Part shown: one piece after another, positions 3,479-34,751 of the stretch
Layout of the letters: every line of letters begins with the position of its first letter
How positions within the stretch are numbered: the first letter of the stretch is position 1
Origin: an uncultured Verrucomicrobiota bacterium
GTDB lineage: Bacteria > Verrucomicrobiota > Kiritimatiellia > RFP12 > UBA1067
Direction: 5' to 3'
NCBI GenBank assembly: GCA_945483525.1
Contig: CALYRV010000003.1
Span: forward strand, 1 to 48,029
DNA length: 48,029 nucleotides
Program-made: the position numbers and the translations under genes
The notes under the pieces: generated by a model
Databases searched by the model: none
Told to the model about the DNA's origin: nothing
What the model saw: only the letters and a program-made list of their open reading frames with translations

Positions 3479-4117
3479 TCACTTAAGCTTAAAGGCCAGG
3501 GTAATGCGGGCAATGGAGGCGACGGTCTCGCCACCGGATCTTGCTGGCGTGAACTTCGCGAAACGGACCGCGCGGAGCGCGGCTTCGTCAAGCTCCACGA
3601 ATCCGCTCGAAGACACTACCGTCGCCTCATCGACCTCGCCTTGCGGATTCACCATCATCTCAACAACAACATCGCCCTGCTCGCCTCGCTGGCGCGAGCC
3701 CTTCGGATAGTCCGGTCTAATCGCACGCTTCGGACGCGGAGGCGCATCGACGCGGGCCTGGACGGGTGCTGGAGTGACAGGTGCAGGGTGCGGGGCGCGG
3801 AATGCCGGGAGGGTCGGCTTTTCAACGGGTTTGGGGATGTCGACCGCGTCGGGAATCGGCGGCAACGGCTCGGGCGTTTCCACGACCTTCGGCTCCGGCG
3901 GCCTTTCCGGTTCCGGCCGCGGCAGAAACGGATTCGACGACTGCGGCAAAACTGCCGCGGTTTCATCTTCTTCCTCCGCGAAGGAAAGCTCGACACTGGA
4001 AAGGTCGAGAGTCGCGAGGACGTCCGGCGAGGGAACGTATTCCATATACGCCCAAATGCCGAGTCCAACCAACAGGTGGACCGCCAGCGAAATCAAGATT
4101 GCAATCGGGAATCTCAA
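3479..4117 (-). CDS. TonB-like energy-transducing protein
   Basis: TonB-family protein that would span the periplasm and pass proton-motive energy to outer-membrane receptors. A single N-terminal transmembrane anchor (IAILISLAVHLLVGLGIWAY) precedes a Pro/Glu/Val-rich linker at about residues 45-135 and a TonB C-terminal domain (RPDYPKGSRQRGEQGDVVV, VVSSSGFVELDEAALRAV, AKFTPA). No ATG fits. The TTG at 4117 has GGGAG 8 nt upstream; the reading frame also allows a TTG at 4132 with weaker support. The start region lies in a 7-bp repeat array (4112-4154), and a second array (3765-3800) encodes part of the linker. It is the last gene of the long envelope operon. ExbB/ExbD are not adjacent. Confidence 0.88.
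   Translation of the reverse strand: MRFPIAILISLAVHLLVGLGIWAYMEYVPSPDVLATLDLSSVELSFAEEEDETAAVLPQSSNPFLPRPEPERPPEPKVVETPEPLPPIPDAVDIPKPVEKPTLPAFRAPHPAPVTPAPVQARVDAPPRPKRAIRPDYPKGSRQRGEQGDVVVEMMVNPQGEVDEATVVSSSGFVELDEAALRAVRFAKFTPARSGGETVASIARITLAFKLK
3765..3800. repeat. Heptanucleotide array in the TonB linker
   Basis: Plus-strand units are GGTGCTG, GAGTGACA, GGTGCAG, GGTGCGG, GGCGCGG: four 7-mers and one 8-mer, 36 bases in total, equal to 12 codons. It encodes a Pro/Ala/Val stretch of the TonB linker. The core GGTGCAGGGTGCGG also occurs, on the opposite strand, in the array inside the helicase gene (28864-28913). Confidence 0.6.
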
Positions 4118-4154
4118 CTTCTCAACTCCCAACTCTCAACCGCCCAACTGTCAG
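4112..4154. repeat. Heptanucleotide array at the toroid/TonB gene junction
   Basis: Plus-strand units are CTCAACT, TCTCAACT, CCCAACT, CTCAACC, GCCCAACT and a decayed GTCAGC, a 7-8 bp periodic array. On the coding strand the units read as GTTGAGA/GTTGGGA variants. The array spans the gap between the toroid gene stop (4159) and the TonB start and supplies both candidate TTG starts and the GGGAG ribosome site. Confidence 0.6.
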
Positions 4155-4158
4155 CGGT

Positions 4159-5199
4159 TCATTCGTCGACGGTTTCGTCACGCTGATACACGGGGAGCTG
4201 GCGATAGGGGACGGAGAATGCCAGTATGGTCATCGCCGTGCAGTACACCTGTGAACGCTCGTTGTGATGAGGCGGCCAGGAGCCATCCTCCCGCTGTCGC
4301 GGCAAGTAGGTAGAATACATCCAATCCTCGTAATCCTTCCAGTACTGACCACCGAGCTGGAAGAGCCCCTGCGCGGCGTAATACACGCCGTAATACATGA
4401 AGCCCTGTTCCGGCATCTTCTCCTTGTAGACGCCCACCAGATACTTGGCGGCATCGAGCGAATCCGGATCCTCATGGCTGCCGCAGAGCTCAAGACAGAG
4501 AATGCCAGCGCCGGAAAGCGTGACGCCGTTGCTGCCGTTGCTGCCCTGATAGCAGAAATTGCCGTCCTTCTTGTTGTGATGCGCGTGCATGTACTTGACG
4601 GCGCGCTTGATGACGATATCGGGAATCTGGGCGCCATTAAGACGAGCAGACCGGAGCGCCATCAGGTTCCAGCCTGAGCATGAGAGGTCGGAGTCGGACG
4701 AATTAGGCTCATAACGCCAGCCGCCAACATTATAGCCGTTCTTCTTTACGCGCTGAGCATCAATGATCACCTTAAGCGCCTTGGGAAGCCACTCATCAAT
4801 CTGCGCCTGGCGCTCCTTCGAGACCATGCCAGAGACCTCAGTAAGAAACAACGTCGAGATCGCGTGGGAATACATCTTGCCTCCACCCTGCTTACCGAAA
4901 TATCCGGTCTCGTCGTGATGCGAGAGAATGAAGTCCAGCGAACGTTCAATAAGCTGCCCGTACTTCTTGTCTCCCGGAACGTGTCCCTTGGCGAGACAAG
5001 CCATGCCCGCAAGTGCCGGCATCGCACAGGGGCACTCTCCCGGGAAACTTCCGTCCGGCTTCTGGACGTTGAGGAGATAGGTGAGCCCACGCTCAATCGC
5101 CATATCAACTTCATCTTCCTTTGGCGCGGCCCGAAGCGTAAAGAGTAAAGAATGAAGAACGGCTAGTGAAAGCACCAATGTCAGACGCTTATTCATCAT
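4159..5199 (-). CDS. Exported prenyltransferase/squalene-cyclase-type toroid protein
   Basis: 346-residue protein with an N-terminal signal peptide (LTLVLSLAVLHSLLF) followed by alpha/alpha-toroid repeats of the terpene cyclase/prenyltransferase type. Repeat-like segments include QKPDGSFPGE, YSHAISTLFLTEVSGM, GGWRYEPNSSDSDLSCSGW and DGSWPPHH. A true squalene-hopene cyclase is about twice this length. Here DSDLS sits where cyclases carry their catalytic Asp motif, so cyclase activity should not be assumed; a periplasmic binding or structural role is equally possible. Proteins of this type often accompany MoxR/BatA clusters in Planctomycetes, which matches the context. The start overlaps the DUF4175-like stop by 4 bp (ATGA), with GGAGG 6 nt upstream. 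Part of the signal peptide is encoded by a heptamer array (5134-5161). Confidence 0.85.
   Translation of the reverse strand: MMNKRLTLVLSLAVLHSLLFTLRAAPKEDEVDMAIERGLTYLLNVQKPDGSFPGECPCAMPALAGMACLAKGHVPGDKKYGQLIERSLDFILSHHDETGYFGKQGGGKMYSHAISTLFLTEVSGMVSKERQAQIDEWLPKALKVIIDAQRVKKNGYNVGGWRYEPNSSDSDLSCSGWNLMALRSARLNGAQIPDIVIKRAVKYMHAHHNKKDGNFCYQGSNGSNGVTLSGAGILCLELCGSHEDPDSLDAAKYLVGVYKEKMPEQGFMYYGVYYAAQGLFQLGGQYWKDYEDWMYSTYLPRQREDGSWPPHHNERSQVYCTAMTILAFSVPYRQLPVYQRDETVDE
5134..5161. repeat. Heptanucleotide array encoding part of a signal peptide
   Basis: Plus-strand units are GCGTAAA, GAGTAAA, GAATGAA, GAACGGC: four 7-mers following a GA(R)TRAA pattern. On the coding strand it encodes about residues 13-22 of the toroid protein (VLHSLLFTLR), which is the hydrophobic core of the signal peptide. 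The reading frame is intact through the array. Confidence 0.5.
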
Positions 5200-8100
5200 T
5201 TTTTGCCTCCTTGATTGAGAGCCTTGAAATAGTCACGGACCAATCCGCGGTATTCGCTCGGAACATCATCCATAGGATCAGCTTCGGCACCGGAAGAGGA
5301 AGAAGATTTCATGCGGAACCAGTCCACGCCGTCATCCTCACCGAGAGCCTCGCGAACATTACTGGTCTGACTCTGAGACTGCTGATGCTGCTGGTTCTCC
5401 TGCTGGCTCTGACTGCTCTGCTGTTGCTCCTGTTGCTGCTGTTGCTGGTCCTGCTGCTGTTGCTGATTCTGCTGATTCTGCTGCATTTGCTGCATCTGCT
5501 GCTGCATCGGGTTTTGCGGCTGCTGCATCTGCTGTTGCTGGAATTGCTCTTGGGGCATATTCTGCTGCTGCATCATCTGCTGCATCTGCTGCTTCATCAT
5601 CTCGGCCGCGGACTCGAACTTCTGCTGCATCTGCTGCATCTCCGGCGACTGCGGCTGCTGCGACTGCGACTGCTGTTGTTGCTGCTGCATCTCCTGCGCG
5701 GCCTGCTTTGCGATTTCGCCGAGTTTCGCCTTGAGCTCTTCCGGCGAGAGCTTACCGAACTCCTGCTTCATCTGCTCCATCGCCTGCTTCATGGACTCCT
5801 TCATCGCGTCGGCCATCGCTTTCGCCTGCTCGGGAGTCATGTTCGCCAGACTCTCCTTCATCGCCTCGAGCATCGCTTTCCTCTGTTCGGGAGACATCTT
5901 CTCCTGACCCGCCATCTGTTCTGCCGCCTGCTGAGCCATCTGCTCCATCTGCTCCTGCGACATCTGCTGATTGCCGAGCTCGGCCTTCGCCGCCTCCATC
6001 GCCGCCTGCATGGCCTCGTTGATCTTGTTCATCAGCTCCTGCATCTCCTTCGCCTCGTTGGCGAAGCGCTCGTTGGCCTGCTTCATGCGGTTCTGGGCTT
6101 CGGTCAGCTGCTCCTTGGCCTGGCTGAGCGCCTCCGAAACTTCATCCATGTTGGCCTTGGCTTCCTCGTTCTTCTGTTCTCCGAGGTTCTTCGCCGCATC
6201 CTTGGCGCTGTCGGTCGCATCCTCCTGACTCCACTTGGTGCTTTCAAGCGGTTCCGCCGTCCTACTTTCGTCCAGTTCCGGGATCCCGGTCTGCTTCTCG
6301 ACGTCCTGGAGCAGCTTGTCGGTCTCACGCACCAGGTTCTCGAGTTCGCGGGCGAGCTGGTTTTCGGAGTTCTTCTGTTCGTCGCCGGACATCTTCTCCT
6401 TGATATCCTTCTGCTTCTGTGCGAGTTCGTCCATCCGCTTGGCGATCTTCTCCGCCTTCTCGATCTCCTTGTCAAGCGAACGCTGCATGTCGTCCTGCAG
6501 CTCCCTCTGCATCTCGTCCATCAGCTGCTTCTCGGCGTCGCCAAGCTCCTGCGGACTCATCTCGCCCTTCTCAGCAGCTTCAGCCAACGCCTCCTGCTGC
6601 TCCTTGAGGTCTTCCAGCTTCTGCATGTCCTCAGCGGTCTTGGTGAGAATCTGGTATTTCTTGAGCGCCTCGTCATACGCCTTCATGAGTTCCTTGAAAT
6701 GATCGTAGCACTTGCACGCAGGGCCATACCGAGAGGAGATGTCGACGAGGTAGATATCCTCCACCTCCTGGCGGACGGGGACGAGATGCCGGTCCATCAC
6801 CGGGCGGAGGATCTCCGCGCCCGTGGACAGTCTGGTGTCGAGCAGGTTCTGGATGAAATCAGCGAAAAGGCCTTCCGCGTTGCTGATATGGGTCTTGCAG
6901 AGATCGTGGTTCTTCTTAGCGTCGTTCAGATTCCAGGGATTGTTCGTATGACGGTATCCGTTCCTGGCGTTCTCCATGTGCCGCATCGCGGTCTCGAGCG
7001 TCCTGCGGATGTCCTCCGACTCCTTCTTGGTCTCCTCGATCTGCTTCTGCAGCTCCTGCCGGCCGAGCGATTTGCCGCCGTCGCTGCCGTTCTGCCCCTT
7101 GGTCTGAAGTTCGACGAGGACGGACGAGGAGCGCGTGACGCCTGGTCCACCGAGTTCCTCGGGAAGGTTGTCTTCTACCCGCACGCGCACCTGGAATGCG
7201 GCAGACTTGCCGAGGCGCGAACCGAGCGCGAGGATCGACACCATCTCGGAGCCGACGACGTATCCGTCCTGTCCCTGCGACAGCTCGAACTCGCGCAGAT
7301 CCTTGTAGTCGGCAGTGCCGACCGCGATCTCAAGCACCGCCTTTGCGACCTTGAAGTCGTCCTTGGCCTTGAACTCCACCGGCAGGACTCCCGAACGCGG
7401 TAGCTTGATCTCGGCCGTTTCCGGCACAGTAAGCTCGACCGAGGGTGGAGTGTCCTTCGCAACCGTGACCGCGGAGGAGACGACCTGATTTGAGAAGCCG
7501 TTGGAATCCTGCGCCATCGCAGACCACATGCCGTCCATATCCTTGCCGACATCGAAGGCGAAGGCAAGCCCGTTCTCATCGACGGGCTCCGCCTCGAGGA
7601 TGCGCTCGCCAGGGATCTTAATGTAACCAGTGATGTCCTCGCGCGGTTTCCTAAACGAAATCACTACCCTCGATCCAGGAACGGCGACGACCTCGGCGGA
7701 GTTGGTGTATTCGGTCGGGTTGCGCTCCGTATACGCAGGATGCTCGATGCGGATCTTCCGGTCGACGAACGTCGGGGTCGGGACCACCTTCACGCTGTAC
7801 GCCTTGGTGAGGGCGCTGCCACAGTTGACGCGATAAGTGAAACTCTCGTGAACCGAAGGATAGTCGAACTCGTAGAAGATTGGACCCTTCGCCTCCTCTT
7901 CGGTCATGCGGACCATGCGCTCGACCGCCTCGCTCCTGCCGTTCACCGAAGTGCGGACGAACGCCTTGGACGGGAAGCCGCCGTTGACCGCAAGCGACAC
8001 CTTGAAGGAGCTGCCGGCGAGCAGCACCTGGTCGCCGGGAGCAACCTTCAGGGACGAGGCGTAGATGTTGTCGACCTCGGCGGCTGGCATCAGCGCACGC

Positions 8101-8648
8101 GCGACGAGTCGCGCGGTAGCAGTCGGAAACGCCGCGAAGAGCCCGAGCAGGACCAACACCGCGGCGGCGGCGACGATGAACCGGGGCTTGATCGTACGCG
8201 AGGTGAACTCCTTCTTCGGCGAGACCTTGGTAGCGTCCGTAATCGCGCGCTTGGTGATCTCATTGACAAGTTCCTTGGACCACACCTCGCCCCCCCGCCC
8301 CTCTTCCGCAAGCTCCACGACCGTCGACAGACGCTCCTCCAGCTCAGGATGATTACGCTCTATCAAGAGTGCGACATCAGAAAGCGAGATCTTGCGACGT
8401 AGCGGCTTAATAAGCGCGAACCAGGCTACTGAACCAGTACCTGAGACAACACCGCACCAGAGCATCCAACGGACCCAGTTTGAGTAGATCGTGACCATCG
8501 CATCAATCGCCATGATCGCGAGAACAGATGCGATAAAAACGGCGAGTGTAGCACAGATGCCGCGAAACAAGATAATGTGTCGAATGCGCGAAAGACTCGC
8601 TTTCAGAATCTTCGCTACCGCCGGAGGTATCTTCTTGGTATCATACAT
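5196..8648 (-). CDS. DUF4175-like membrane protein with coiled coil and Gln-rich tail
   Basis: 1150-residue envelope protein resembling the DUF4175 proteins that accompany MoxR/BatA clusters. Two N-terminal membrane helices (about residues 26-50 and 61-80) and a third (about 155-175) precede a long extracytoplasmic part with beta-rich, Ig-like segments to about 490. A charged Glu/Lys/Met/Gln coiled coil runs from about 500 to 980. The tail (about 985-1110) is dominated by Gln and Met, with runs of up to six Gln, then a short conserved-looking end (DDVPSEYRGLVRDYFKALN). The tail is encoded by CAG/CAA repeats (5371-5720). The function is unknown; a scaffold working with the neighbouring VWA proteins is an inference. 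It follows the VWA gene by 11 bp. Confidence 0.85.
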   Translation of the reverse strand: MYDTKKIPPAVAKILKASLSRIRHIILFRGICATLAVFIASVLAIMAIDAMVTIYSNWVRWMLWCGVVSGTGSVAWFALIKPLRRKISLSDVALLIERNHPELEERLSTVVELAEEGRGGEVWSKELVNEITKRAITDATKVSPKKEFTSRTIKPRFIVAAAAVLVLLGLFAAFPTATARLVARALMPAAEVDNIYASSLKVAPGDQVLLAGSSFKVSLAVNGGFPSKAFVRTSVNGRSEAVERMVRMTEEEAKGPIFYEFDYPSVHESFTYRVNCGSALTKAYSVKVVPTPTFVDRKIRIEHPAYTERNPTEYTNSAEVVAVPGSRVVISFRKPREDITGYIKIPGERILEAEPVDENGLAFAFDVGKDMDGMWSAMAQDSNGFSNQVVSSAVTVAKDTPPSVELTVPETAEIKLPRSGVLPVEFKAKDDFKVAKAVLEIAVGTADYKDLREFELSQGQDGYVVGSEMVSILALGSRLGKSAAFQVRVRVEDNLPEELGGPGVTRSSSVLVELQTKGQNGSDGGKSLGRQELQKQIEETKKESEDIRRTLETAMRHMENARNGYRHTNNPWNLNDAKKNHDLCKTHISNAEGLFADFIQNLLDTRLSTGAEILRPVMDRHLVPVRQEVEDIYLVDISSRYGPACKCYDHFKELMKAYDEALKKYQILTKTAEDMQKLEDLKEQQEALAEAAEKGEMSPQELGDAEKQLMDEMQRELQDDMQRSLDKEIEKAEKIAKRMDELAQKQKDIKEKMSGDEQKNSENQLARELENLVRETDKLLQDVEKQTGIPELDESRTAEPLESTKWSQEDATDSAKDAAKNLGEQKNEEAKANMDEVSEALSQAKEQLTEAQNRMKQANERFANEAKEMQELMNKINEAMQAAMEAAKAELGNQQMSQEQMEQMAQQAAEQMAGQEKMSPEQRKAMLEAMKESLANMTPEQAKAMADAMKESMKQAMEQMKQEFGKLSPEELKAKLGEIAKQAAQEMQQQQQQSQSQQPQSPEMQQMQQKFESAAEMMKQQMQQMMQQQNMPQEQFQQQQMQQPQNPMQQQMQQMQQNQQNQQQQQDQQQQQQEQQQSSQSQQENQQHQQSQSQTSNVREALGEDDGVDWFRMKSSSSSGAEADPMDDVPSEYRGLVRDYFKALNQGGKK
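5371..5720 (-). repeat. CAG/CAA-rich low-complexity coding tract
   Basis: Triplet-rich tract in the 3' part of the DUF4175-like gene, visible on the plus strand as CTG and TTG triplets with frequent CAT. It encodes the Gln/Met-rich tail. CAG and CAA are mixed, so the homopolymer is encoded by an interrupted repeat rather than a pure one. The complementary strand gives a spurious open frame rich in Leu. Confidence 0.8.
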
Positions 8649-8659
8649 GGCTTTTCGAA

Positions 8660-14172: not shown

Positions 14173-14175
14173 AGC

Positions 14176-20531: not shown

Positions 20532-20533
20532 AT

Positions 20534-22077: not shown

Positions 22078-22085
22078 AGTAAGAT

Positions 22086-22094: not shown

Positions 22095-22122
22095 AAAAAT
22101 CGCCTTTCATGTGGCGATTTTT
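22094..22122 (-). terminator. Rho-independent terminator after the metalloprotease gene
   Basis: A 10-bp perfect inverted repeat (AAAAATCGCC at 22095-22104 and GGCGATTTTT at 22113-22122) with an 8-nt loop. On the minus strand it ends in a run of six T. It begins at the TGA of the metalloprotease gene and ends the pcnB-mla operon. It could also work in the other direction because of its A/T flanks. Confidence 0.85.
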
Positions 22123-23528
22123 CAATGAGCGACTTTCCAGAACCTCTTCCACTCGTTACAGAAAAGTCGCAACGAATCTTCTGACGAAAAGGCCCGACTG
22201 ACGGCTTCCCGCATATCCTTGGTCTCGCTCAGCGCCTTGAAATAATCGCGCTTCAGATTCTTGAAAGGATCGTGTCGAACTTCACGCATACCGTGCTCCA
22301 TAAAGTACGCGATAGTCCATGCCAGTCGATAATTTGTCCGTCGTTGCACGTCCGTCCCCGCGTAGAACTGCGAATAATCCATCGCCAACAGCCGCGGCAA
22401 CGCCAGCTCCATCTCATCCCACTGCTCCTCCGTCAAGGGCAGGTCGAACGTATCCCGTCCCTCGTCCTCGAAATACTGCGCATACCCCTCGTTGAGCCAA
22501 GGCGATACCGGAATCATCGCCGTCGCATAGGAAAGATACTGATGAAACGCCTCGTGACGAAACGTTCGTCGCAGCTCGGCACGATCCCCGTCTTCTGGCA
22601 ACGCCGCCACCAACTCGCGCCTCGATGGACTCCAGTATGCAGCCGCCCACTGCATGTCCTCGCCGGCCGCCGCCAGGAAGTCCGACCGACTTCTGTATAT
22701 ACGGGCGACGGACAACACATCGGACGTGTCGACATCGGTCGGCAGCGCCGCGGCGAATCTGCCTCGCCATACCGCCAAATCATTCGTCAACGAGTTCACA
22801 AACACCCGCGCATCCCTTAAATCATCCAGAATCACGAAATCCTCGCCCGCCGTAACGTGCCACCGCTTATAGGCAGACACCGAATGCGCCGCATCCCGCT
22901 TCAACAACTCACGCTCCGACGGCTTCGCCTTCTTCCCCTTCCGCTCGCCATTCCCAATTTCCCGTTCCTCATTGCCCGTTTCCAGCTCTGCAAGCTCTTT
23001 CCAGAACTCGTCCTCAAAACGATCCTTCATCGCGCGGCAATCATCACCTTCCGGCAGATCCCAGATGGCGACGGACCAGTGATCCGACCTCACGGGCAGG
23101 AACGCACAGACGATCGCGGGAAGATTCGTGCCTTCATAATAACGGACGTCCTTCATGCCCCTAAACTTCTGCCGAGGACGAACGAAATTCTCAGGAATCT
23201 CAGACTGCAGCAACGCAGACAGCCCCCGCCGGAGCTGTTCATCATCGCGCTTATCCGGCTTAACCTTCGAATCCTCATAATCCCTGCGCGTCTCAATCCC
23301 CGCAACCGCCGGCGGCAATACGTTCAGACTAGCCAGCGTGAAACTCCGGCGACTATCACCGTCAAACCAGGAGCCGGTGACGGACTGCGAATACCAGAGC
23401 TCGTCCGTATGATAACGGTCCTCCAGACGAACCTTCCCGCCTTCCCGGACCAGCCAGCCTTCCGCGCGCGGCATCTCGACTGGTTCTGGAGTCGTGAAAA
23501 AGAACGATGCTAGCAGGAACGAGATCAC
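22122..23528 (-). CDS. Exported gluzincin-type metalloprotease
   Basis: 468-residue putative zinc peptidase. A short hydrophobic N-terminus (MISFLLASFFF) suggests export. The catalytic HExxH is present as RHEAFHQYL, and about 20 residues later WLNEGYAQYFED provides the Glu that completes a gluzincin site. The overall pattern resembles DUF1570-type peptidases. A loop at about residues 182-194 is encoded by a 36-nt heptamer array. The start is GTG, overlapping the mlaD-like stop by 4 bp (GTGA). It is the last gene before the terminator. A role in envelope protein turnover is inferred from its place after the Mla genes. Confidence 0.82.
   Translation of the reverse strand: MISFLLASFFFTTPEPVEMPRAEGWLVREGGKVRLEDRYHTDELWYSQSVTGSWFDGDSRRSFTLASLNVLPPAVAGIETRRDYEDSKVKPDKRDDEQLRRGLSALLQSEIPENFVRPRQKFRGMKDVRYYEGTNLPAIVCAFLPVRSDHWSVAIWDLPEGDDCRAMKDRFEDEFWKELAELETGNEEREIGNGERKGKKAKPSERELLKRDAAHSVSAYKRWHVTAGEDFVILDDLRDARVFVNSLTNDLAVWRGRFAAALPTDVDTSDVLSVARIYRSRSDFLAAAGEDMQWAAAYWSPSRRELVAALPEDGDRAELRRTFRHEAFHQYLSYATAMIPVSPWLNEGYAQYFEDEGRDTFDLPLTEEQWDEMELALPRLLAMDYSQFYAGTDVQRRTNYRLAWTIAYFMEHGMREVRHDPFKNLKRDYFKALSETKDMREAVSRAFSSEDSLRLFCNEWKRFWKVAH
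22948..22983. repeat. Heptanucleotide array in the metalloprotease gene
   Basis: Plus-strand units are CCATTCC, CAATTTCC, CGTTCCT, CATTGCC, CGTTTCC: four 7-mers and one 8-mer, 36 bases, equal to 12 codons. It encodes a hydrophilic segment (ETGNEEREIGNG) between predicted helices. The layout (7, 8, 7, 7, 7) is identical to that of the array at 3765-3800, though the unit sequence differs. Confidence 0.65.
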
Positions 23529-25206: not shown

Positions 25207-25249
25207 CAGTCATTTGACATTGCACTACACCGCTAACCCGCACCTGATT

Positions 25250-25996: not shown

Positions 25997-26001
25997 GAAT
26001 C

Positions 26002-27818: not shown

Positions 27819-27826
27819 TGTCTGAT

Positions 27827-27856
27827 ATTATAGCAAATATGCGTCCACTTTAGCAA
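27827..27856 (-). promoter_or_regulatory. Promoter of the pcnB-mla operon
   Basis: On the minus strand a -35-like TTGCTA (27851-27856) is followed after 18 bp by TATAAT (27827-27832) with the TGC extension. The -10 ends 8 nt before the ATG at 27818, predicting a start point at or next to the start codon. The -35 lies just beyond the stop codon of the GNAT gene. Confidence 0.65.
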
Positions 27857-27857
27857 C

Positions 27858-28334
27858 TTATGCAAGTGACTTGCACATTGCGATTTCGGGACAGGTATAA
27901 GGATCGGCGTGCTTGGTGCAGTTGATGCAGCCCGTATAGAGCTTGTGCATGATCTGCGTCTTCGGAATCTCCCTGAAACCAAGCGCAGTGAAGAACTCCG
28001 GCGCGAAAGTCAGTACCACGACTTCATGCGGACAAAACATCTTCGCCTTCGCGATCACCGCCTCCACCAGCTCCTTACCAATACCTTGACGACGAAAGAT
28101 CGATTTCACCGCAACGGACACCACCTCGACCGCCGCAGCCTCGGCGTTGCCGATTTCGGGATGAATCGTATAAGACGCGCAACCAGCCATCTCGCCGTCC
28201 GTTTCCGCGACAAAAAACCGGTCGATCGATTCGACGATATTACCAAGCGAACGCGGCACGAGCTGATCTCGGTTCAAGTTGATGAGCGCGAAGATCATCT
28301 CCGCGTCCGCAAGTGTCGCAGGGCGAACGTTCAT
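27858..28334 (-). CDS. GNAT-family acetyltransferase with Cys-rich tail
   Basis: 158-residue GNAT N-acetyltransferase. The acetyl-CoA loop is visible as RRQGIGKELVEAVI and the last strand as FTALGFREIP. The C-terminus (CINCTKHADPYTCPEIAMC) has four Cys and recalls the tail of some short bacterial N-acetylglutamate synthases (ArgA-like), so an arginine-pathway role is possible but unproven. The frame is open upstream to 28508, but that part runs through the helicase tail; the ATG at 28334 has GGAGGAAGTC before it and overlaps the helicase stop by 4 bp. Confidence 0.88.
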   Translation of the reverse strand: MNVRPATLADAEMIFALINLNRDQLVPRSLGNIVESIDRFFVAETDGEMAGCASYTIHPEIGNAEAAAVEVVSVAVKSIFRRQGIGKELVEAVIAKAKMFCPHEVVVLTFAPEFFTALGFREIPKTQIMHKLYTGCINCTKHADPYTCPEIAMCKSLA

Positions 28335-30478
28335 GACTTCCTCCACGTGGTTTTGATAATCGTCGTAGATTTCGGCTTTGAATAACCGCCATACCCGCCG
28401 CCATATCCGCCTCGCGAACCATAGCCGCCACTGTACCCGCCACTGTACCCGCCGCGCGGACCATAGCCGCCGCCATAAGCCGGCGGGGCGGACTGCACGC
28501 GAATACAACTGCAGAGCTGCGGCGGAATCTCCTTTACGAACTGCGAGGGGTCCACCGGAAAGATCCCGCCGTCCGCCATCTTACGCATCTGCGGCACGAA
28601 CATATAAAGTTTGTCCTTCGCCCGCGTCACAACAACATAGAAAAGCCGCCGCTCCTCGTCCATCCGATTCTCCTCGACCGCCTTGCCCGACGGGAACATC
28701 GACTCGCACAACCACGGCACAATCACCACCGGCCATTCCATGCCCTTCGCCTGATGCACCGTCGACAGCGTCACGCGATCGAGTTCGGGATCATTCTTCC
28801 TCACGTCCAGGTTCGTCATCAGCGCGACATCGCTCAAGAACGCCTCCAACCGCCGCCATCCATCACTCTGCACTCCGCACCCTGCACCCTGCAGTTCTCC
28901 CTCCTGCACCTCTCCCCCCGCGATCTGCGCGGCGAGTTCCTTGACATCCTCAAGGCGGTCCTCGGCATCGGCATCACCGAACTCTCTACGGAGATAATCC
29001 TCATAAAACAGATCGCAGAAATCCTCGATCACTTCACCGATCGAATCGTCATCCAGGTGCTCCTGCACAACCTCCATCGCCTTCATAAGCGGCGGAAACA
29101 ATGGTTTCGCCTTCGCGCCGAAGAGCCCGAGGAGCGCCTCGCGGTCCTCCCTGCGCCTCATATCGAACTGACGGCCGAGCCTGTCCCACATCTTCTGCGC
29201 CCCCTTCTCTCCGACACCCGGGAAAAGGCAGACGAAGCGGAGGAAGGAAAGTTCATCCGCAGGATTCACGATAAGCCTGAGATACGCGAGCACGTCCTTC
29301 GTGTGGACCTGCTCGAAAACACCGACACCCGAGGTGATACGATGCGGAACGCCGCGACGGGCGAAGGACATCTGAATCTTGATGGACTGGAAATGGCTGC
29401 GGTACAGAACCGCGATATCCGAATAGCGAAAACCGTTCCGACGCATCTCTGCGACGACCTTCATAATCTCCGTCGCCTGCGCCTCGTCGTCATACACACG
29501 ATAGATCCACGGCTTGTCTTCGGTCACCGCACTGCGGATAGGCTTCAGAATCTTCTCGAACTGATTAGGCGCGTCGCGCATCACCACATTCGCGACGTTG
29601 AGGACACCGGGCACGGAACGGTAATTTCGTTCAAGCTTAATCACTCGACAGCCCTCCCAGCGCTTCGGAAACTCCATAATGTTCTCAATCTGGGCTCCGC
29701 GCCAGGTGTAGATGCACTGAAAATCATCGCCGACCGCGAGGATGTTGCGATGCTTCGCCGCTAGGATGTCAGTGAACTCCGCCTGGAGGCCGTTAGTATC
29801 CTGATACTCGTCCACCAGCACATGGAGGAAATGCTCCTGAAGCATCTCGCGGACATTCTCCTTTTCCTTCAGAAGACGGAGCCCGTTAACCAGCAGATCG
29901 TCGAAATCCATCGCCCCAAGCTCGAGCTTCTTCGCATTGTACTTGCCGGCAATCTCAACGATCTCCTCCGGTGTGAAACCTGCCGCCTTCGTCTGCCAGC
30001 GTGCAGCAATCAGTTCAATCGGCTTCGACTCATTCTGCGCCTCGGAGATCATCTTGGCGACGACCTCCTTCTTTGGAAAATCCTTCGTATCCTTCACCGT
30101 TGACTTGATGATCTCGCCGATCAGCTTCTTCTGATCGTCCTCATCCAGAATCTGAAAGCTCGGCTGATAACCGAGGGATCCGCCATAACGCCGCAGAAGA
30201 CGCGCGCAGATCGAGTGAAAGGTCCCAGACCAGATCCCCGCGACACCGTCACCAATCACCTTCTGCGCCCGATCGAGCATCTCGCGCGCCGCCCGATTAG
30301 TGAAGGTCAACAACAAAATGCGATCAGCCGGCACCCCATTTTCAATCAGATACGCCACGCGATGCACGAGGGTCCGCGTCTTGCCAGTTCCGGCCGCCGC
30401 CAACACCAGCAACGGACCATCCCCTGCCGTCGCCGCCGCGCACTGTTCCGGATTCAATAATTTCGAAAAGTCAGTCAT
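28331..30478 (-). CDS. UvrD/PcrA-like superfamily 1 helicase with Gly-Tyr-Arg tail
   Basis: 715-residue 3'-5' DNA helicase. Motif Q region (LNPEQCAAATAGDGPLLVLA), Walker A (AAGTGKTRTL), motif II (VDEYQDTN), motif III (GDDFQCIYTWRGA), motif IV (LERNYRS), motif V (STVHQAKGMEWPVV) and motif VI (EERRLFYVVVTRAK) are all present. At about residues 522-539 a linker is encoded by a heptamer array. The C-terminus is a GGY/RGG low-complexity tail from about 655 (YGGGYGPRGGYSGGY...) in place of the usual Tudor-like end of PcrA/UvrD. Start ATG lies about 55 nt after the -10, and the leader contains a second heptamer array. Confidence 0.93.
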   Translation of the reverse strand: MTDFSKLLNPEQCAAATAGDGPLLVLAAAGTGKTRTLVHRVAYLIENGVPADRILLLTFTNRAAREMLDRAQKVIGDGVAGIWSGTFHSICARLLRRYGGSLGYQPSFQILDEDDQKKLIGEIIKSTVKDTKDFPKKEVVAKMISEAQNESKPIELIAARWQTKAAGFTPEEIVEIAGKYNAKKLELGAMDFDDLLVNGLRLLKEKENVREMLQEHFLHVLVDEYQDTNGLQAEFTDILAAKHRNILAVGDDFQCIYTWRGAQIENIMEFPKRWEGCRVIKLERNYRSVPGVLNVANVVMRDAPNQFEKILKPIRSAVTEDKPWIYRVYDDEAQATEIMKVVAEMRRNGFRYSDIAVLYRSHFQSIKIQMSFARRGVPHRITSGVGVFEQVHTKDVLAYLRLIVNPADELSFLRFVCLFPGVGEKGAQKMWDRLGRQFDMRRREDREALLGLFGAKAKPLFPPLMKAMEVVQEHLDDDSIGEVIEDFCDLFYEDYLRREFGDADAEDRLEDVKELAAQIAGGEVQEGELQGAGCGVQSDGWRRLEAFLSDVALMTNLDVRKNDPELDRVTLSTVHQAKGMEWPVVIVPWLCESMFPSGKAVEENRMDEERRLFYVVVTRAKDKLYMFVPQMRKMADGGIFPVDPSQFVKEIPPQLCSCIRVQSAPPAYGGGYGPRGGYSGGYSGGYGSRGGYGGGYGGYSKPKSTTIIKTTWRKS
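28864..28913. repeat. Heptanucleotide array inside the helicase gene
   Basis: Plus-strand units are CACTCTG, CACTCCG, CACCCTG, CACCCTG, CAGTTCT, CCCTCCTG, CACCTCT: six 7-mers and one 8-mer. It encodes a segment around ELQGAGCGVQSDG in a loop ahead of WRRLEAFLSDVALMT, a helix conserved in UvrD proteins, so it looks like an insertion tolerated in a loop. Shares a 14-base core with the TonB linker array, on the other strand. Confidence 0.7.
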
Positions 30479-30503
30479 TAGCGGAAAAGCCGTTCCAAAA
30501 CTT

Positions 30504-30531
30504 GTTCACTGTTCTCTGTTCACTATTCACT
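30504..30531. repeat. Heptanucleotide array in the helicase leader
   Basis: Plus-strand units are GTTCACT, GTTCTCT, GTTCACT, ATTCACT: four consecutive 7-mers with one change each. It lies between the -10 (30535-30540) and the helicase ATG (30478) and would form part of the untranslated leader, which has no obvious ribosome site. Confidence 0.7.
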
Positions 30532-30534
30532 AAT

Positions 30535-30543
30535 ATTATACCA
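30535..30543 (-). promoter_or_regulatory. Extended -10 promoter of the helicase gene
   Basis: Minus strand reads TGGTATAAT. No TTGACA-like -35 lies at 16-19 bp. The ATG is about 56 nt downstream, so unlike several neighbours this transcript should have a leader, which contains the heptamer array. The site is next to, and divergent from, the tRNA-Pro promoter. Confidence 0.55.
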
Positions 30544-30551
30544 TATCCCAC

Positions 30552-30581
30552 TTGACTCATCAGGGGCAAAAGTAGTATACT
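30552..30581 (+). promoter_or_regulatory. Promoter of tRNA-Pro
   Basis: Plus-strand TTGACT (30552-30557), 18-bp spacer and TATACT (30576-30581), placed about 39 bp before the tRNA. It is a good sigma-70-type match with the same 18-bp spacing as the tRNA-Leu promoter. Confidence 0.75.
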
Positions 30582-30620
30582 ATACAATGTTTTGCGGCTT
30601 AGCAGCTCAAAATCCCGTGT

Positions 30621-30697
30621 CGGAGCGTAGCGCAGCCTGGTAGCGCGTTTGCTTCGGGAGCAAAAGGCCGAGGGTTCAAATCCCTCCGCTCCGACCA
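30621..30697 (+). tRNA. tRNA-Pro(CGG)
   Basis: 77-nt cloverleaf. Acceptor CGGAGCG (30621-30627) pairs fully with CGCTCCG (30687-30693). The anticodon stem TTTGC/GCAAA encloses TTCGGGA, giving anticodon CGG, which reads CCG. T arm is GAGGG-TTCAAAT-CCCTC. Discriminator A and an encoded CCA end the gene. It is the only plus-strand gene accepted in the window. Confidence 0.97.
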
Positions 30698-30708
30698 ATT
30701 TCCCTAGT

Positions 30709-31185
30709 TTAGAGCCTGTGGCACACTGCCGTCACCGATTTGACTGGGACTAGAAAATAGTCTTTGGTAACCGCAACGCCGATGCGCCTGGTCGCGTCAA
30801 GTTTCGCAAGGATCTTCGCGGAATCGGAAAGCGGCATCGATCCGTAACCCGGACTTCTCCGAGCTCCCCATTCTCCAGGCGTCGCCGCCTTGGCTTCGGC
30901 TTCGACGGAGTCCATCACCTGCTCCACCGCCGCCGCGCCAATCGACTGCGCGATCAATGCTTCAGTCGCCCCGAGCACGCTTAGCCTGCGCTGCCACTGG
31001 TCAAAACGAATCCCGATCGTGCCGCAAAGGTAAATTGCATCCTTCTCTGTCTTCCAGACGCCGCGGGCATCAATCGGTGCTTCCGCAATCAACGCCTTGA
31101 CGAGCTCCAGAAGTCCGCCTTCCAGCGGCTTCGCACCCGCCTTCATGTAACGGATTACTTCAGCCAGGGGAATCTCGATCTCCAT
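30709..31185 (-). CDS. Stand-alone methionine synthase reactivation-domain protein
   Basis: 158-residue protein matching the C-terminal activation (AdoMet-binding) domain of cobalamin-dependent methionine synthase. The key motif is visible as ARRSPGYGSMPLSDSAKILAK, with IGVAVTKDYFLVPVKSVTAV after it. In full-length MetH this domain rebinds AdoMet to remethylate oxidised cobalamin. Here it is a separate small protein, as in split MetH systems; the catalytic part is not in the window. It begins 3 bp after the Bax inhibitor-1 family stop. Confidence 0.85.
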   Translation of the reverse strand: MEIEIPLAEVIRYMKAGAKPLEGGLLELVKALIAEAPIDARGVWKTEKDAIYLCGTIGIRFDQWQRRLSVLGATEALIAQSIGAAAVEQVMDSVEAEAKAATPGEWGARRSPGYGSMPLSDSAKILAKLDATRRIGVAVTKDYFLVPVKSVTAVCHRL

Positions 31186-31188
31186 CGG

Positions 31189-31905
31189 TCAACGCTTGCG
31201 CCCCATCAACCGAAGCAAATGCAGAAACAGATTGACGAAGTCGAGATACAGATTAAGAGCACCGATAATGCCGACACGGTGAATCGCCACAGAATCCATC
31301 GTCCCTTCAGCCGCCGCCAAGCGCTTGATCTTCTGCGCATCGTACATCGTGAGACCAGTGAAGATTAGGATGCCCGCAATCGAACAGATATAATCTAACG
31401 CATCACTGTGCATGAAGATGTTGACAATCCCAGCCACAATCAGCCCCCAGAGCGCCATATAGCAGAACGAACCGACGGATGAAAGATCGTCTTTCGTGAA
31501 CGAGCCCCAGAGAGCAAGTCCGCCGAACATCGCCGCCGTAATAAAAAACACCCGCTGCACAGCCGCAAGTTCATAGGCGACAAAGACCACGGACAAAGTC
31601 AGCCCGTTCACCAGAGCGTAAGCCAGGAACATCACGTAAGCGAATGCCGCCGGCATTTTATTGATTGCCGCGCTCAAGATGAACACCAATGCCAGCTCTA
31701 CAATGACACAGGTCAGAAAGCCAGGTCCATTCAGAATCGTCGCCCACAACCCACTGGACGCCGTATACCACGCCGAGACACCCGACAACGCAAGTCCGAT
31801 CGCCATCCATCCGTAAACGATCTTGAACATTCTGGACAACGCGGCCTTCTCTGTAAACCCAGGCTGATGACCAGGCTTGCCGAATTCCTTTTCGAAGTCT
31901 ATCAT
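31189..31905 (-). CDS. Bax inhibitor-1/YccA family membrane protein
   Basis: 238-residue protein with seven membrane helices and the BI-1 family pattern: an acidic N-terminus, FKIVYGWMAIGLALSGVSAW, a helix-6 region AGILIFTGLTMYDAQKIKR (the family's conserved D-A-Q-K), and LNLYLDFVNLFLHLLRLMG at the end. Members are pH-sensitive Ca2+ leak channels or interact with membrane proteases (YccA with FtsH). The ATG has an excellent AAAGGAGG site. It is in the middle of a three-gene unit. Confidence 0.94.
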   Translation of the reverse strand: MIDFEKEFGKPGHQPGFTEKAALSRMFKIVYGWMAIGLALSGVSAWYTASSGLWATILNGPGFLTCVIVELALVFILSAAINKMPAAFAYVMFLAYALVNGLTLSVVFVAYELAAVQRVFFITAAMFGGLALWGSFTKDDLSSVGSFCYMALWGLIVAGIVNIFMHSDALDYICSIAGILIFTGLTMYDAQKIKRLAAAEGTMDSVAIHRVGIIGALNLYLDFVNLFLHLLRLMGRKR

Positions 31906-31919
31906 TGCTTAATCCTCCT

Positions 31920-32228
31920 TTACCTATTTTTCCTCTTAAGCTCCCGCTCTATACGATCGGCCGCCTCTTCGGCCTCCTTCGCCGCCCGCTCGTCCCCCTG
32001 GGATCTAAGCTTGACGGACATCCTACGTAAATCCCGCGCGGTCTTCGCCAAATCCTCCATACGCTGCTCCTCCTTAGCCCGCCAGGCAAACTCCATCTCG
32101 GACTTCACTCGCACATATGTACGATTATCCTCGTCATCACTACTGCAACGCACATCCAAGAAGCAGATGCTAGCAACCAAGACCATGGCCGCCAAAACCC
32201 ATACCGCACCTCGAACATTGAATATCAC
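31920..32228 (-). CDS. Small membrane-anchored coiled-coil protein
   Basis: 102-residue protein of unknown function. One N-terminal hydrophobic stretch (GAVWVLAAMVLVASICFL) is followed by a highly charged Arg/Glu/Ala coiled coil to the C-terminus. The frame runs upstream through the tRNA-Leu gene, which cannot be coding, so the start is internal. The GTG at 32228 lies 6 nt after TGTTATACT (32235-32243), matching the leaderless layout elsewhere; an ATG at 32186 would cut the hydrophobic stretch. Two Cys near the membrane do not make a standard lipobox. First gene of the unit with the BI-1 family protein. Confidence 0.6.
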   Translation of the reverse strand: MIFNVRGAVWVLAAMVLVASICFLDVRCSSDDEDNRTYVRVKSEMEFAWRAKEEQRMEDLAKTARDLRRMSVKLRSQGDERAAKEAEEAADRIERELKRKNR

Positions 32229-32234
32229 GGTAAA

Positions 32235-32243
32235 AGTATAACA
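32235..32243 (-). promoter_or_regulatory. Extended -10 promoter of the small membrane protein unit
   Basis: Minus strand reads TGTTATACT, ending 6 nt before the GTG at 32228. It begins directly after the T-tract of the tRNA-Leu terminator, the same terminator-promoter arrangement as at 22086-22122. Confidence 0.5.
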
Positions 32244-32266
32244 AAAAAAACCGCCGTCAGGGCGGT
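32243..32266 (-). terminator. Rho-independent terminator of tRNA-Leu
   Basis: On the minus strand ACCGCC, loop CTGAC, GGCGGT, then a run of seven further T. It begins about 10 bp after the tRNA end. Strong and simple. Confidence 0.85.
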
Positions 32267-32276
32267 ATTTCAGATT

Positions 32277-32361
32277 TGGTGCTCGGGGCGGGACTCGAAC
32301 CCGCAAGGAGTTACCCATATGCACCTCAAGCATACGTGTCTGCCAATTTCACCACCCGAGC
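32277..32361 (-). tRNA. tRNA-Leu(GAG)
   Basis: 85-nt class II tRNA with a long variable arm. Acceptor GCTCGGG pairs fully with CCCGAGC. Anticodon stem TATGC/GCATA encloses TTGAGGT, giving anticodon GAG, which reads CUC and CUU. T arm is GCGGG-TTCGAGT-CCCGC. Discriminator A and an encoded CCA are present. Confidence 0.97.
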
Positions 32362-32388
32362 ATTGTTTTGAGTAGCAAAACGCCACAT

Positions 32389-32418
32389 AGTATAACACAT
32401 GCGGCGCTTGCTTGTCAA
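32389..32418 (-). promoter_or_regulatory. Promoter of tRNA-Leu
   Basis: On the minus strand TTGACA (32413-32418), 18-bp spacer and TATACT (32389-32394) with a TGT extension. It ends 27 bp before the tRNA. The best -35/-10 pair in the window. Confidence 0.85.
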
Positions 32419-32437
32419 TAGCGAATTTTACGTTTTC

Positions 32438-33406
32438 TCACTTCTGCGGACGCCCCTTCGGGAAGACCCACTTCTCGATCGGCTCCGGAAGCGTCTCTGG
32501 AACGAGTCCGATCTGCGTCGCCGCATCCTTCGCCTTCCAATCCGGAATCGCCGCGGCCTTGATCTTGGCGGCTTCGTTATTGGGCTTCTTCCAGTATTCC
32601 TTATCCGCCGCCAACGCCTTAAGGACCTCCTGATACGCCGCGAAATAGCGCTTCGCGTACTCCTGCTGCGACTCCTTGGTATAGTGGATGTTGTCAGGCT
32701 GCAGCTTCACGTCTTCGGGACAGGTCGTGTACTTGCCGGGACCGTACGCGTACTCGCAGGTCCAGCGCTTCGCGTTCGCCAGAATTTTGCCAAACCAATC
32801 CTTCTCCATATTCGGATGAAGTCCGCCGCAGATCAACGGCACACCCTCGGCACCGACGTCCTTACGGAAACGCGCGATCATCTCAGGGAACCGATACTGA
32901 TAGAGATAGCCATTGCGACGCATGCAGTCCGACTCCCCCTGATGCCAGAGGATCGCCGTAAGTGTGCCCTTCTCCAACGCCTGCTTCGTACGCGCGACCA
33001 TGTCGTCATACGGATGCCAGTTGTTGCCGCCCTTATTGGACTTTCCGCCCGGAACCCACGCCTGCAACGGCGTGCCTCCGACCGCGGTCGGAACAAGTCC
33101 GACGACAATCGAGGGGTCGCTCTCGGCGAGAGCCTCGCCGAAGAACTTGCCCGGACCCACGCCGGAGTTCTTGATATCGTAATGAATCGGGTCAACACAC
33201 GGAACCCACTCGCCCTTCTGATTGAGCATCACCACCCGCGGATGCGCCTTGTTGTCCGCCGGATCAACCGTGCCGCGGCCAGCCATATTGGACTGTCCTG
33301 CAAGGACCACAATCTTGAACTTCAACTTGTCCGTCGGAATATTGACTTCCGCGAAGACTCCGGCACAAATGGCACAGCCGGCAAGCGCAATGATAAGCTT
33401 GTTCAT
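32438..33406 (-). CDS. Secreted SASA-family carbohydrate esterase
   Basis: 322-residue secreted esterase of the sialate O-acetylesterase/acetylxylan esterase (SASA, SGNH-like) type. Signal peptide LIIALAGCAICAGVFA; catalytic Ser39 in LAGQSNMAGRG; the block ILWHQGESD; and the closing Asp/His in DNIHYTKESQ. It would remove acetyl groups from plant or host glycans. The ATG at 33406 has AAAGGA 7 nt upstream; the open frame extends back to 33463. It has its own promoter inside the end of the MFS gene and follows the GH/MFS pair. Confidence 0.92.
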   Translation of the reverse strand: MNKLIIALAGCAICAGVFAEVNIPTDKLKFKIVVLAGQSNMAGRGTVDPADNKAHPRVVMLNQKGEWVPCVDPIHYDIKNSGVGPGKFFGEALAESDPSIVVGLVPTAVGGTPLQAWVPGGKSNKGGNNWHPYDDMVARTKQALEKGTLTAILWHQGESDCMRRNGYLYQYRFPEMIARFRKDVGAEGVPLICGGLHPNMEKDWFGKILANAKRWTCEYAYGPGKYTTCPEDVKLQPDNIHYTKESQQEYAKRYFAAYQEVLKALAADKEYWKKPNNEAAKIKAAAIPDWKAKDAATQIGLVPETLPEPIEKWVFPKGRPQK

Positions 33407-33436
33407 TGAAATTCCTTTCTCAAGTATTATGAAAGA

Positions 33437-33445
33437 ATTATACCA
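33437..33445 (-). promoter_or_regulatory. Extended -10 promoter of the esterase gene
   Basis: Minus strand reads TGGTATAAT. It overlaps the TAA stop of the MFS gene (33438-33440). The ATG is about 30 nt downstream with a ribosome site, so this transcript has a normal leader. Confidence 0.55.
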
Positions 33446-34751
33446 AATCCTTGAGCTTTGCACTATCTTTTTTGAAGGTGAAAAAGAAGGATATCATCAT
33501 CAATACCGCACCGATGACGTAGGTGACGCCCATGATTCCGAACCCGACTTCGAAGCCCCGAACGCCATATTCATCGGAAAGCCAGCCCATCAGCACGCCG
33601 GAAAGTCCGCCGAAGGAAAACGCGAAAAGCGTAAAGATCCCGACCGAAGTGGAACGGAACCGCGGATCCATCACGTCGAACAGCGACGCGTGGGTATTCA
33701 CCTCGAAGAAGCCGCGGAAGACGCCGTAAAGCGCGCTCATCACGATCATCATAGTCGCCGAGGACGAGAACCCGACGATCGCGAGACACGGGGCGCCCAG
33801 GAGCAGCGCCGTGATCTGGAAACCGAGACGGAAACGCGGAAACCGCTTCACAAAACGGTCCGTCACCACCGCGCCCGCCATGATCGCCGCGAACGCGAAC
33901 AGATGATGCCAGAGCATCGTCGCGGACCCCGCCTGCGCCACCGCATCCTTCATCGGCATATCCGCCATGAACTTCACCGCCATGAACTTCGGCGCCCAGC
34001 AGAGATATGCGTTGTTGACGAACACGATTGCAATGAAGCCGCACATCGCGAGAATCGCCGAAGGATTGGTGAAGAACGCCTTGTAGCCGGAGAAAAGCGA
34101 GGTTCGTGGTTCGTGGTTCGTGGTTCGTGGTTCGCGGTTGGATCCATCCTTCAACAGGAAGATGAACGACAATCCGAGCACAAAACCCGCCGCGCCGAAG
34201 GCGATGAAGACATTGCGCCAGTCACCGAGCAGCCCGAGCGTCTTCGCGACGATCAGTCCGGACGTCATGAGTCCGAAATAGAGCGAACCCTGATGGATCG
34301 AAAGCGCAACCGAAAGCGTCTCCTTGTGGTAACTCGCGATAAGCGGCGGATAGCACGGACCGTAGAAGCTCTCCCCGATGCCGGTCGCGATCGAGCGGAA
34401 GAACATCACGACGACGAACGCCGGCAGCACGAATCCGAGCACATGCCACTCGCCGACGAAGCCCATCATGACCGTCATCACGGACCACGCCATCAGCGAA
34501 ATCGTGATCACCCACTTGCGAGAGAAGCAGTCGCCCACCGGACCCGCGACGAACGCCATCGCCGCAAGCGTCCAGAAAAGCACCGTGTTGATCCAGCCGA
34601 TCTGGACTCCATCGAGACCGAGCTCGTTCTGAATCGGAAGCGTCAGGAGTCCGAAGAGAGCCCTGTCCGCCTGATGGAAGAAGAACGCCCCCGACAGCAG
34701 GAGTAGCAGAAACCACTTGTAATACTTACCCATGCAACCCTGCAACTTCAT
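33438..34751 (-). CDS. MFS transporter, probable sugar or sugar-acid uptake
   Basis: 437-residue major facilitator with about 12 membrane helices. FHQADRALFGLL, GPVGDCFSRKWVI (loop 2-3 signature) and GIGESFYGPCYPP in the N-half resemble the hexuronate/glycerol-3-phosphate branch. The substrate is not certain; the neighbours (glycoside hydrolase, esterase) argue for a sugar. The central cytoplasmic loop between helices 6 and 7 is partly encoded by a heptamer array (34101-34140), giving the repeated NxEPRT segment. The ATG at 34751 overlaps the hydrolase stop by 4 bp; another ATG at 34733 has AGGG 5 nt upstream and is an alternative start. Confidence 0.93.
   Translation of the reverse strand: MKLQGCMGKYYKWFLLLLLSGAFFFHQADRALFGLLTLPIQNELGLDGVQIGWINTVLFWTLAAMAFVAGPVGDCFSRKWVITISLMAWSVMTVMMGFVGEWHVLGFVLPAFVVVMFFRSIATGIGESFYGPCYPPLIASYHKETLSVALSIHQGSLYFGLMTSGLIVAKTLGLLGDWRNVFIAFGAAGFVLGLSFIFLLKDGSNREPRTTNHEPRTSLFSGYKAFFTNPSAILAMCGFIAIVFVNNAYLCWAPKFMAVKFMADMPMKDAVAQAGSATMLWHHLFAFAAIMAGAVVTDRFVKRFPRFRLGFQITALLLGAPCLAIVGFSSSATMMIVMSALYGVFRGFFEVNTHASLFDVMDPRFRSTSVGIFTLFAFSFGGLSGVLMGWLSDEYGVRGFEVGFGIMGVTYVIGAVLMMISFFFTFKKDSAKLKDLV
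34101..34140. repeat. Heptanucleotide array in the MFS gene
   Basis: Plus-strand units are GGTTCGT repeated four times without change, then GGTTCGC and a partial GGTTG. It is the most perfect array in the window. It encodes NREPRTTNHEPRT in the loop between the two halves of the transporter, a position that tolerates insertion. Confidence 0.85.

Follow-up and report, generated by a model that had tools for sequence, protein, structure and literature searches.

We analyzed a 48-kb stretch of DNA (48,029 nucleotides, here called the window) for short tandem arrays with a period of 7 bp, which an initial annotation had placed at seven sites. The nearest genome relatives of its UvrD-like protein, at most 76% identical, are gut and rumen metagenome-assembled genomes (MAGs) named Kiritimatiellae, Verrucomicrobia, Lentisphaerae or uncultured bacterium, and the window looks like a contig of gut or rumen Kiritimatiellae. 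By Pfam and NCBIfam, the array genes encode a TonB_C protein, a UvrD/PcrA-type helicase, an MFS transporter, a protein that matches a squalene-hopene cyclase C-terminal domain barely above the Pfam cut-off, and a 468-amino-acid protein that matched no family in either collection. Period-7 stretches are present at all seven sites, with uneven strength. Scores are from Tandem Repeats Finder (TRF) unless stated otherwise.

3765..3800, minus strand: weak G/C-rich heptad-like stretch in the TonB-domain open reading frame (ORF) 3479-4132; permissive TRF score 40, near-chance class
4112..4154, no strand assigned: heptad array TCTCAAC; TRF score 42 at period 7, 46 at period 15
5134..5161, minus strand: weak heptad array AAGAGTA; autocorrelation score 11.5, permissive TRF score 35
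22948..22983, minus strand: degenerate heptads, unit read by eye as RTTYCCC; no TRF row, strict or permissive
28331..30478, minus strand: UvrD/PcrA-type helicase gene (domain search)
28864..28913, minus strand: heptad array CACCCTG in the UvrD linker, residues 522-539; TRF score 39
30504..30531, no strand assigned: heptad array GTTCACT in the leader of the UvrD gene, adjoining TATTATACCATA; TRF score 44 (start 30503)
33438..34751, minus strand: MFS transporter gene (domain search)
34101..34140, minus strand: cleanest heptad array, GGTTCGT (sense ACGAACC), in the MFS transporter's mid-protein linker, residues 204-217; TRF score 71

Arrays in the window

The stretch at 3765 encodes a Pro/Ala-rich TonB spacer (FRAPHPAPVTPAP), and that at 22948 a linker (residues 182-194) of the 468-amino-acid protein. 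The array at 4112 is flanked by the stop of ORF 4159-5199 and by the TonB-domain gene, whose called 5' end (4132) it overlaps; that at 5134 falls at about codons 13 to 22 of ORF 4159-5199, within an N terminus that resembles a signal peptide. Directly beside the leader array, at 30532-30546, is TATTATACCATA, which reads TATGGTATAATA on the other strand and is promoter -10-like; the same sequence also directly adjoins arrays of locus L361 in the relative genome G020.

Among segments with autocorrelation scores of at least 15 in the window, period 7 is represented three times (28864, 30503 and 34098), and periods 2, 3, 4, 5, 6, 8, 10, 11 and 13 give none. Strict TRF (scores 2, 5, 7; minimum 30) found no period-7 row at 3765, 5134 or 22948; it gave an additional one at 34784 (score 34). 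Permissive TRF (scores 2, 3, 5; best row per place) gave five period-7 rows, at 34098 (score 74), 30503 (48), 3764 (40), 5134 (35) and 34784 (34, outside the seven sites), against means of 2.1 in order-3 Markov and 1.6 in codon-block shuffles (20 of each kind). The arrays at 4112 and 28864 are missing from these rows, presumably because another period scored higher there. Four of the seven proposed arrays (4112, 28864, 30504 and 34101) are clear, whereas 3765, 5134 and 22948 are individually not beyond chance. It had also been remarked that two coding arrays share the pattern 7,8,7,7,7; this spacing can be written out by eye, but the two, at 3765 and 22948, are the weakest arrays of all.

A different kind of repeat occupies 5379-6015, in the 1,150-amino-acid ORF 5196-8648. 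The many CTG-rich triplet-phase repeats and the 57-bp repeat there look like ordinary in-frame repeats.

Arrays and unit families in relatives

The scans and the orthologue and copy-number comparisons were made on relatives rather than on the window's own genome. Of 104 confirmed loci found via the UvrD-like protein, 80 were kept. In these loci and the window (1.25 Mb), segments scoring at least 15 number 20 for period 7, 7 for period 8 and 3 for period 5, with 0 each for periods 10, 11 and 13; one Markov copy holds no period-7 segment. Relatives thus show an excess of period 7, and as a class the period-7 arrays are real.

Four relatives (1.76 Mb) and the window, 1.81 Mb in total, contain 139 arrays of period 7 or 8 (48 in G036, 41 in G012, 24 in G059, 23 in G010 and 3 in the window), not counting segments of fewer than 2.6 units or explained by a shorter period. 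The resulting densities, 3.8 to 12.3 per 100 kb, are upper estimates because some contigs were picked from match lists: those of G036, G012 and G059 by names appearing in array-containing searches, and some of G010 from earlier hits. The preference of the relatives for periods 7 and 8 is sharp, and a 50-kb stretch of Escherichia coli K-12 has no period-7 or period-8 array at the same score. By a crude ORF caller, 48 of the 139 arrays are more than 90% inside a called gene, 34 run across a gene end and 57 are intergenic, an enrichment outside genes given that noncoding bases make up 4 to 17%. The initial annotation had proposed a process that creates short heptad arrays at many sites; such a process is supported, for period 8 as well as for period 7, and it acts in leaders, within genes and in the gaps between them. 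Arrays also tend to border stop codons: of 82 arrays, 48% have an edge no more than 5 nucleotides from a stop or overlap one, compared with 19% when positions within those gaps are drawn at random (a previous control, less fair, gave 50% against 4%). We do not press this preference, as arrays hold stops that end any ORF running into them.

The units fall into a few families that recur at unrelated sites, and a small number of genomes show strong expansions of particular units. Each array was reduced to a consensus unit, and two units were counted as shared at one mismatch or less. Pairs of 7-mer units are shared in 156 of 662 cases within genomes and 368 of 2,039 between them, against 2.8% for letter-shuffled units; for 8-mers, the counts are 138 of 552 and 173 of 1,528, against 1.3%. 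Orthologous sites were kept in these counts, so sharing between genomes is partly inherited. Single-link clustering gave 8 families of 7-mers (74 arrays) and 9 families of 8-mers (65 arrays). Expansion is seen in a set of 58 genomes drawn from a larger genus group, in which overlapping matches were counted and one array can give several. GGTTCGY x3 (three exact copies of the unit found in the window's MFS array) matches 47 times in G020, 14 times in G041, once in G038 and never in the other 55 genomes. GGGAAY x3 matches 121 times in G058, 89 in G033, 83 in G038 and once in G020, with 0 in 24 of the 58, and the octad ACCYAACC x3 occurs in 7 of the 58, led by G041 (21), G012 (10) and G020 (10). 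Reversed-pattern controls for the three unit counts gave 0, 1 and 0 matches in all, the single match belonging to GGTTCGY. We also tried a unit grammar: ACT or AGT occurs in 49 of 74 seven-base units (20.0 expected), and AAT, ATG, ATA and ATC are rare. It is not pressed, the families being few and not independent.

Such sharing contradicts the claim that every site has its own unit. Within the window itself, the units at 3765 and 28864 agree within one mismatch; about 0.6 such pairs are expected among its 21 pairs at the 2.8% rate, and the window alone is therefore no proof of sharing. The 4112 unit lies within one mismatch of at least 8 arrays of the AACTTTC/TTTCAAC kind in relatives, and the 5134 unit of six (e.g., ACTTTAC). 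About two chance matches per unit are expected in this comparison at the same rate, so the one-mismatch matches of 3765, 28864 and 34101 mean little. The units at 22948 and 30504 have no such match among the relatives' arrays.

Array sites in orthologues

Site absence and copy-number variation, which the initial annotation had proposed to look for, are both found. After near-duplicate pairs (at least 99% identity or an identical segment) were dropped, reducing 152 to 140, the flank-matched pairs comprise 91 without an array at the second site, 19 with the same unit, 19 with an array of the other period and 11 with another unit. Loci L052 and L073, for instance, have different heptads within the same stretch, and L071 and L026 differ by one 7-bp unit besides substitutions. 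In the UvrD leader, both flank-matched loci (L012 and L118) have a shorter spacer and no array.

Within genes, the arrays sit in variable linkers, as seen in UvrD, the MFS transporter and the glutamate synthase GltB. The UvrD linker is shorter than the window's in most of the 45 homologue rows shown. One homologue, P0001, differs from the window protein by a single residue outside the linker, and its linker is unrelated and has a 7-residue period (GNGELGMGNGELGIGNGE in P0001, EGELQGAGCGVQSD in the window). The linker of the 468-amino-acid protein is likewise variable among homologues, two of which (P0248 and P0249) have 7-residue repeats there; heptads in these three homologues are deduced from the 7-residue period of the protein. 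Of 121 proteins, 25 (counting the query and P0121, which is identical to it) have a tandem peptide repeat with a period of 2 to 11 residues in the MFS linker; in an upstream control stretch of at most 24 residues (linkers reach 47), none of the 121 has one. The corresponding linker counts are 2 of 121 for UvrD and 2 of 121 for the 468-amino-acid protein, for which some rows are empty in the control stretch. At the DNA level, 7 of 35 MFS linkers (orthologues and close paralogues) carry period-7 or period-8 arrays with differing units: GGTTCGT in the window, GGGAAC in G016 and CGCAGAG/CTCCGCG octads in G010, G012, G019 and G043. The seventh, L090, has short CTCCCGG-type heptads, and two further linkers have a 9-bp repeat (L082) and a palindrome (L085). 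Had distant orthologues without the repeat conserved the segments as protein, the proposal of the initial annotation would have failed; in the three genes tested, both the length and the sequence of the segments vary strongly among homologues.

Where an array is called coding, 48 of 55 orthologue pairs differ in length by a multiple of 3; at the remaining arrays, 29 of 81 do. The seven coding exceptions may be crude ORF calls or alignment ends. In phase-variable contingency simple sequence repeats (SSRs), a gene is switched by copy-number changes that shift its frame. Steps of 7 bp in the present arrays would shift the frame as well, but the differences between orthologues at coding arrays mostly preserve it. 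Frame keeping had been read as a sign of unusual selection; it needs no more than purifying selection.

Replacement of units at the same site is seen in G020 and G041, which are 97% identical over 12 kb and 95% over 4.5 kb. Among eight arrays compared, three have a different unit, two differ in length by whole units (one by 49 bp, or 7 units, the other by 7 bp) and three are kept, one of them with a single substitution. At two of the changed sites, CACGAAC heptads stand against octads (ACCTAACC/ACCCAACC); at the third, weak TGTCGGA-like heptads stand against CGCGGAGA-like octads. All three lie inside one gene for a 1,523-residue glutamate synthase large subunit (gltB; Pfam GATase_2, Glu_synthase, Glu_syn_central and GXGXG), which at L349:2551-7122 holds several heptad arrays in loops. 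In the part compared, the two GltB proteins are nearly identical away from the changed sites, and in the part of the alignment covered, G020 has longer loops at 4966-5041 and 5243-5276 than the solved chain 7mfm_G. At the UvrD locus (L032 and L030), a third genome, G038, shares 98.8% identity with G020 across 10.4 kb.

Near two arrays of L361 (9031-9065 and 10468-10536), synteny with G038 breaks: the flanking segments, 94 to 99% identical, are on three different G038 contigs and are contiguous in G041. Arrays find no support as general synteny breakpoints: of 144 alignment ends, 3 lie 60 bp or less from an array, where 1.0% would do so by chance, in a weak test in which many ends probably reflect divergence.

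Origin of the arrays and comparison with known repeats

Short tandemly repeated repetitive sequences (STRRs) of cyanobacteria are degenerate 7-bp direct repeats in dispersed, mostly intergenic arrays, with few unit families per genome. The likeness drawn to these cyanobacterial heptamers in the initial annotation is a fair one: here, too, the arrays are short, degenerate and tandem, and in the relatives one unit family recurs at many unrelated sites of a genome. They differ in that 8-bp units are about as common, arrays also occupy enzyme linkers and close relatives have other units at the same site. The host belongs to another phylum, as the names of its relatives indicate, and we compare the arrays with the STRR type without filing them as a member; three Calothrix heptanucleotides are mentioned in the cited passages of PMC4692102.

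According to the passages cited from PMC4692102 and PMC4679880, heptameric repeats are overrepresented in many bacterial genomes, and slippage tied to the length of DNA contacted by the polymerase has been proposed; both also summarize work of Mrazek and coworkers, in which long heptanucleotide SSRs were found, period 7 was overrepresented and slippage was suggested. As summarized there, that work is at survey level, with no change of unit at the same site. The heptamers GGGAATC and GGGGA(C/T)T are dispersed in Xanthomonas and Nostoc, often near gene ends; in two related genomes, most of them lie between the same genes and vary extensively in length and sequence. The passages describe one G-rich unit type, a preference for four units, G-quadruplex potential and increased stability of the neighborhood (PMC4692102). 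Kiritimatiellae also use GGGAAY, but have many units, several of them not G-rich, and another unit or period can stand at a fixed site. In Beggiatoaceae, one heptamer, TAACTGA, is expanded as direct repeats in few genomes, with a patchy distribution across phyla; the unit is fixed, similar heptamers are rarely repeated, and the cited passages describe no replacement by other units, while their author remarks that modular proteins could tolerate repeats between their subunits (PMC4679880). Borg tandem repeats evolve rapidly, occur between genes and, in frame, in ORFs, and form disordered regions; as described in the part cited, their units in ORFs have lengths that are multiples of three, are generally perfect and are virtually unique to a locus (PMC9879509), in contrast to the present units of 7 to 8 bp, which are degenerate and common to several loci. 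Searches of the open-licence literature for "Kiritimatiell" with tandem repeats and for heptamer repeats with "planctomycet" found nothing.

We consider it probable that the arrays are STRR-like and dispersed, are resized by slippage and are overwritten by copying between sites. Families of degenerate repeats of 7 to 8 bp (sometimes 9 bp) would settle repeatedly in intergenic gaps and tolerant protein linkers. Copy number would change through replication slippage or recombination within the array, with a unit of 7 to 8 bp favored. Units would spread, and old arrays be overwritten, by copying between arrays at different sites; template switching or gene conversion could act where arrays share short stretches such as AACCAC. 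Purifying selection would then retain only in-frame, stop-free arrays in genes. As a side effect, leader arrays may alter promoter or leader spacing.

Several observations weigh against this explanation. Copying is not directly seen, and the order of unit variants is only slightly shared: the mean longest match barely exceeds that of shuffled units, within genomes (16.7 against 15.4) and between them (14.8 against 13.8). Units are not exclusive to a genome, the ACCYAACC octad of G041 being present in G020 as well (21 and 10 matches). Slippage in arrays that were already mixed in the ancestor could mimic replacement, and one gltB array of G020 still ends in an octad unit. Sequence preferences of slippage could also yield recurrent units. 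The G020 regions, and with them the sites compared with G041, were selected for GGTTCGY matches in G020, and one of the three changed sites is weak there (score 11.5). Outside the UvrD locus, G020 and G038 are only 78 to 99% identical and make no clean sister pair. In draft assemblies such as those of the relatives, the copy numbers of arrays can be wrong.

Local replication slippage could also act alone, with a chance seed, a polymerase geometry that favors 7 to 8 bp and sequence preferences that repeat the same units. The whole-unit length differences (49 bp and 7 bp), the sharp preference for periods 7 and 8 and the published proposal that an excess of heptamers reflects the segment in contact with the polymerase, as given in the cited parts of PMC4679880 and PMC4692102, all fit this explanation. 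It accounts poorly for tens of exact-unit matches in one genome with none in 55 relatives, and for unit and period changing in parallel at several gltB loops, and we regard it as rather unlikely to suffice. A bolder alternative is a concerted change in which a genome-wide process copies the current 7- or 8-bp word into existing array sites, including the GltB, UvrD and transporter loops, so that word and even period switch at many sites between nearly identical flanks without a reverse transcriptase. Such a change, which we think unlikely, would mean that flexible protein loops are continually rewritten by a process that is templated and works across loci.

A dedicated writer, mobile or templated, is highly improbable, whether a reverse transcriptase or a RAYT/Y1 transposase acting on palindromes like the repetitive extragenic palindromic (REP) elements. 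REP/RAYT systems consist of palindromes with a linked Y1 transposase. Some octad arrays do form long inverted pairs with TTTTTAAC-like ends that are reminiscent of REP palindromes or miniature inverted-repeat transposable elements (MITEs), and Y1 transposase matches occur in all 12 genomes searched, 11 of them above the cut-off. Most arrays, however, are direct repeats only: an inverted partner exists for 3 of 28 G010 arrays (two of which make up one pair) and for none of the seven window arrays. A single array lies in the 84.7 kb that surround 30 of the 46 listed Y1 matches, so Y1 loci are not array-rich and the transposase finds no support. RVT_1 matches are present in 6 of 16 genomes searched, but not in G020, G041 or G038, the genomes with GGTTCGT, and a reverse transcriptase of the RVT_1 type was rejected, with the proviso that the assemblies may be incomplete. 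For the same scarcity of partners, a hairpin or terminator role was set aside as a general explanation, even though CGCAGAG octad palindromes exist. That all of this is chance repetition and low-complexity coding sequence over-read by eye has a negligible probability: it may hold for the weak stretches at 3765 (TonB spacer), 5134 and 22948 taken singly, and is refuted for the strong arrays by the period-7/8 excess in relatives, the near-empty reversed-pattern controls and the whole-unit differences between near-identical genomes.

Further palindromic and dispersed sequences were noticed in relatives. Inverted pairs of CGCAGAG octads make very long palindromes with TTTTTAAC-like ends at L105:3630-3860, L108:1250-1480 and L150:10969-11094, and one CGCAGAG octad palindrome matches many places in relatives. 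At L167:3637-3708, G010 has a 72-bp palindrome of 9-bp units (GTGTAGAAC) that is absent at the same site of G012; a sequence of about 200 bp at L167:6428-6629, possibly MITE-like, has matches in numerous places across G036, G059 and further relatives. Around 8981-9009 of L150, a 29-base stretch is identical in several relatives, with three copies at 58-bp spacing in G040:C86.

The arrays behave like the dispersed heptamer repeats already known and occur in another host group. What is new relative to the literature passages cited is that near-identical genomes can differ in unit, and even in period, at the same site, and that arrays occupy enzyme loops repeatedly. Heptamer arrays are on record from several phyla, with no established mechanism; near-identical genomes with different words at the same sites make growth, spread and overwriting directly comparable, and G020 and G041 are a clear pair for testing slippage alone against copying between sites. 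Finally, the arrays enter and change the loops of ordinary enzymes, a route to rapid change of flexible protein regions.

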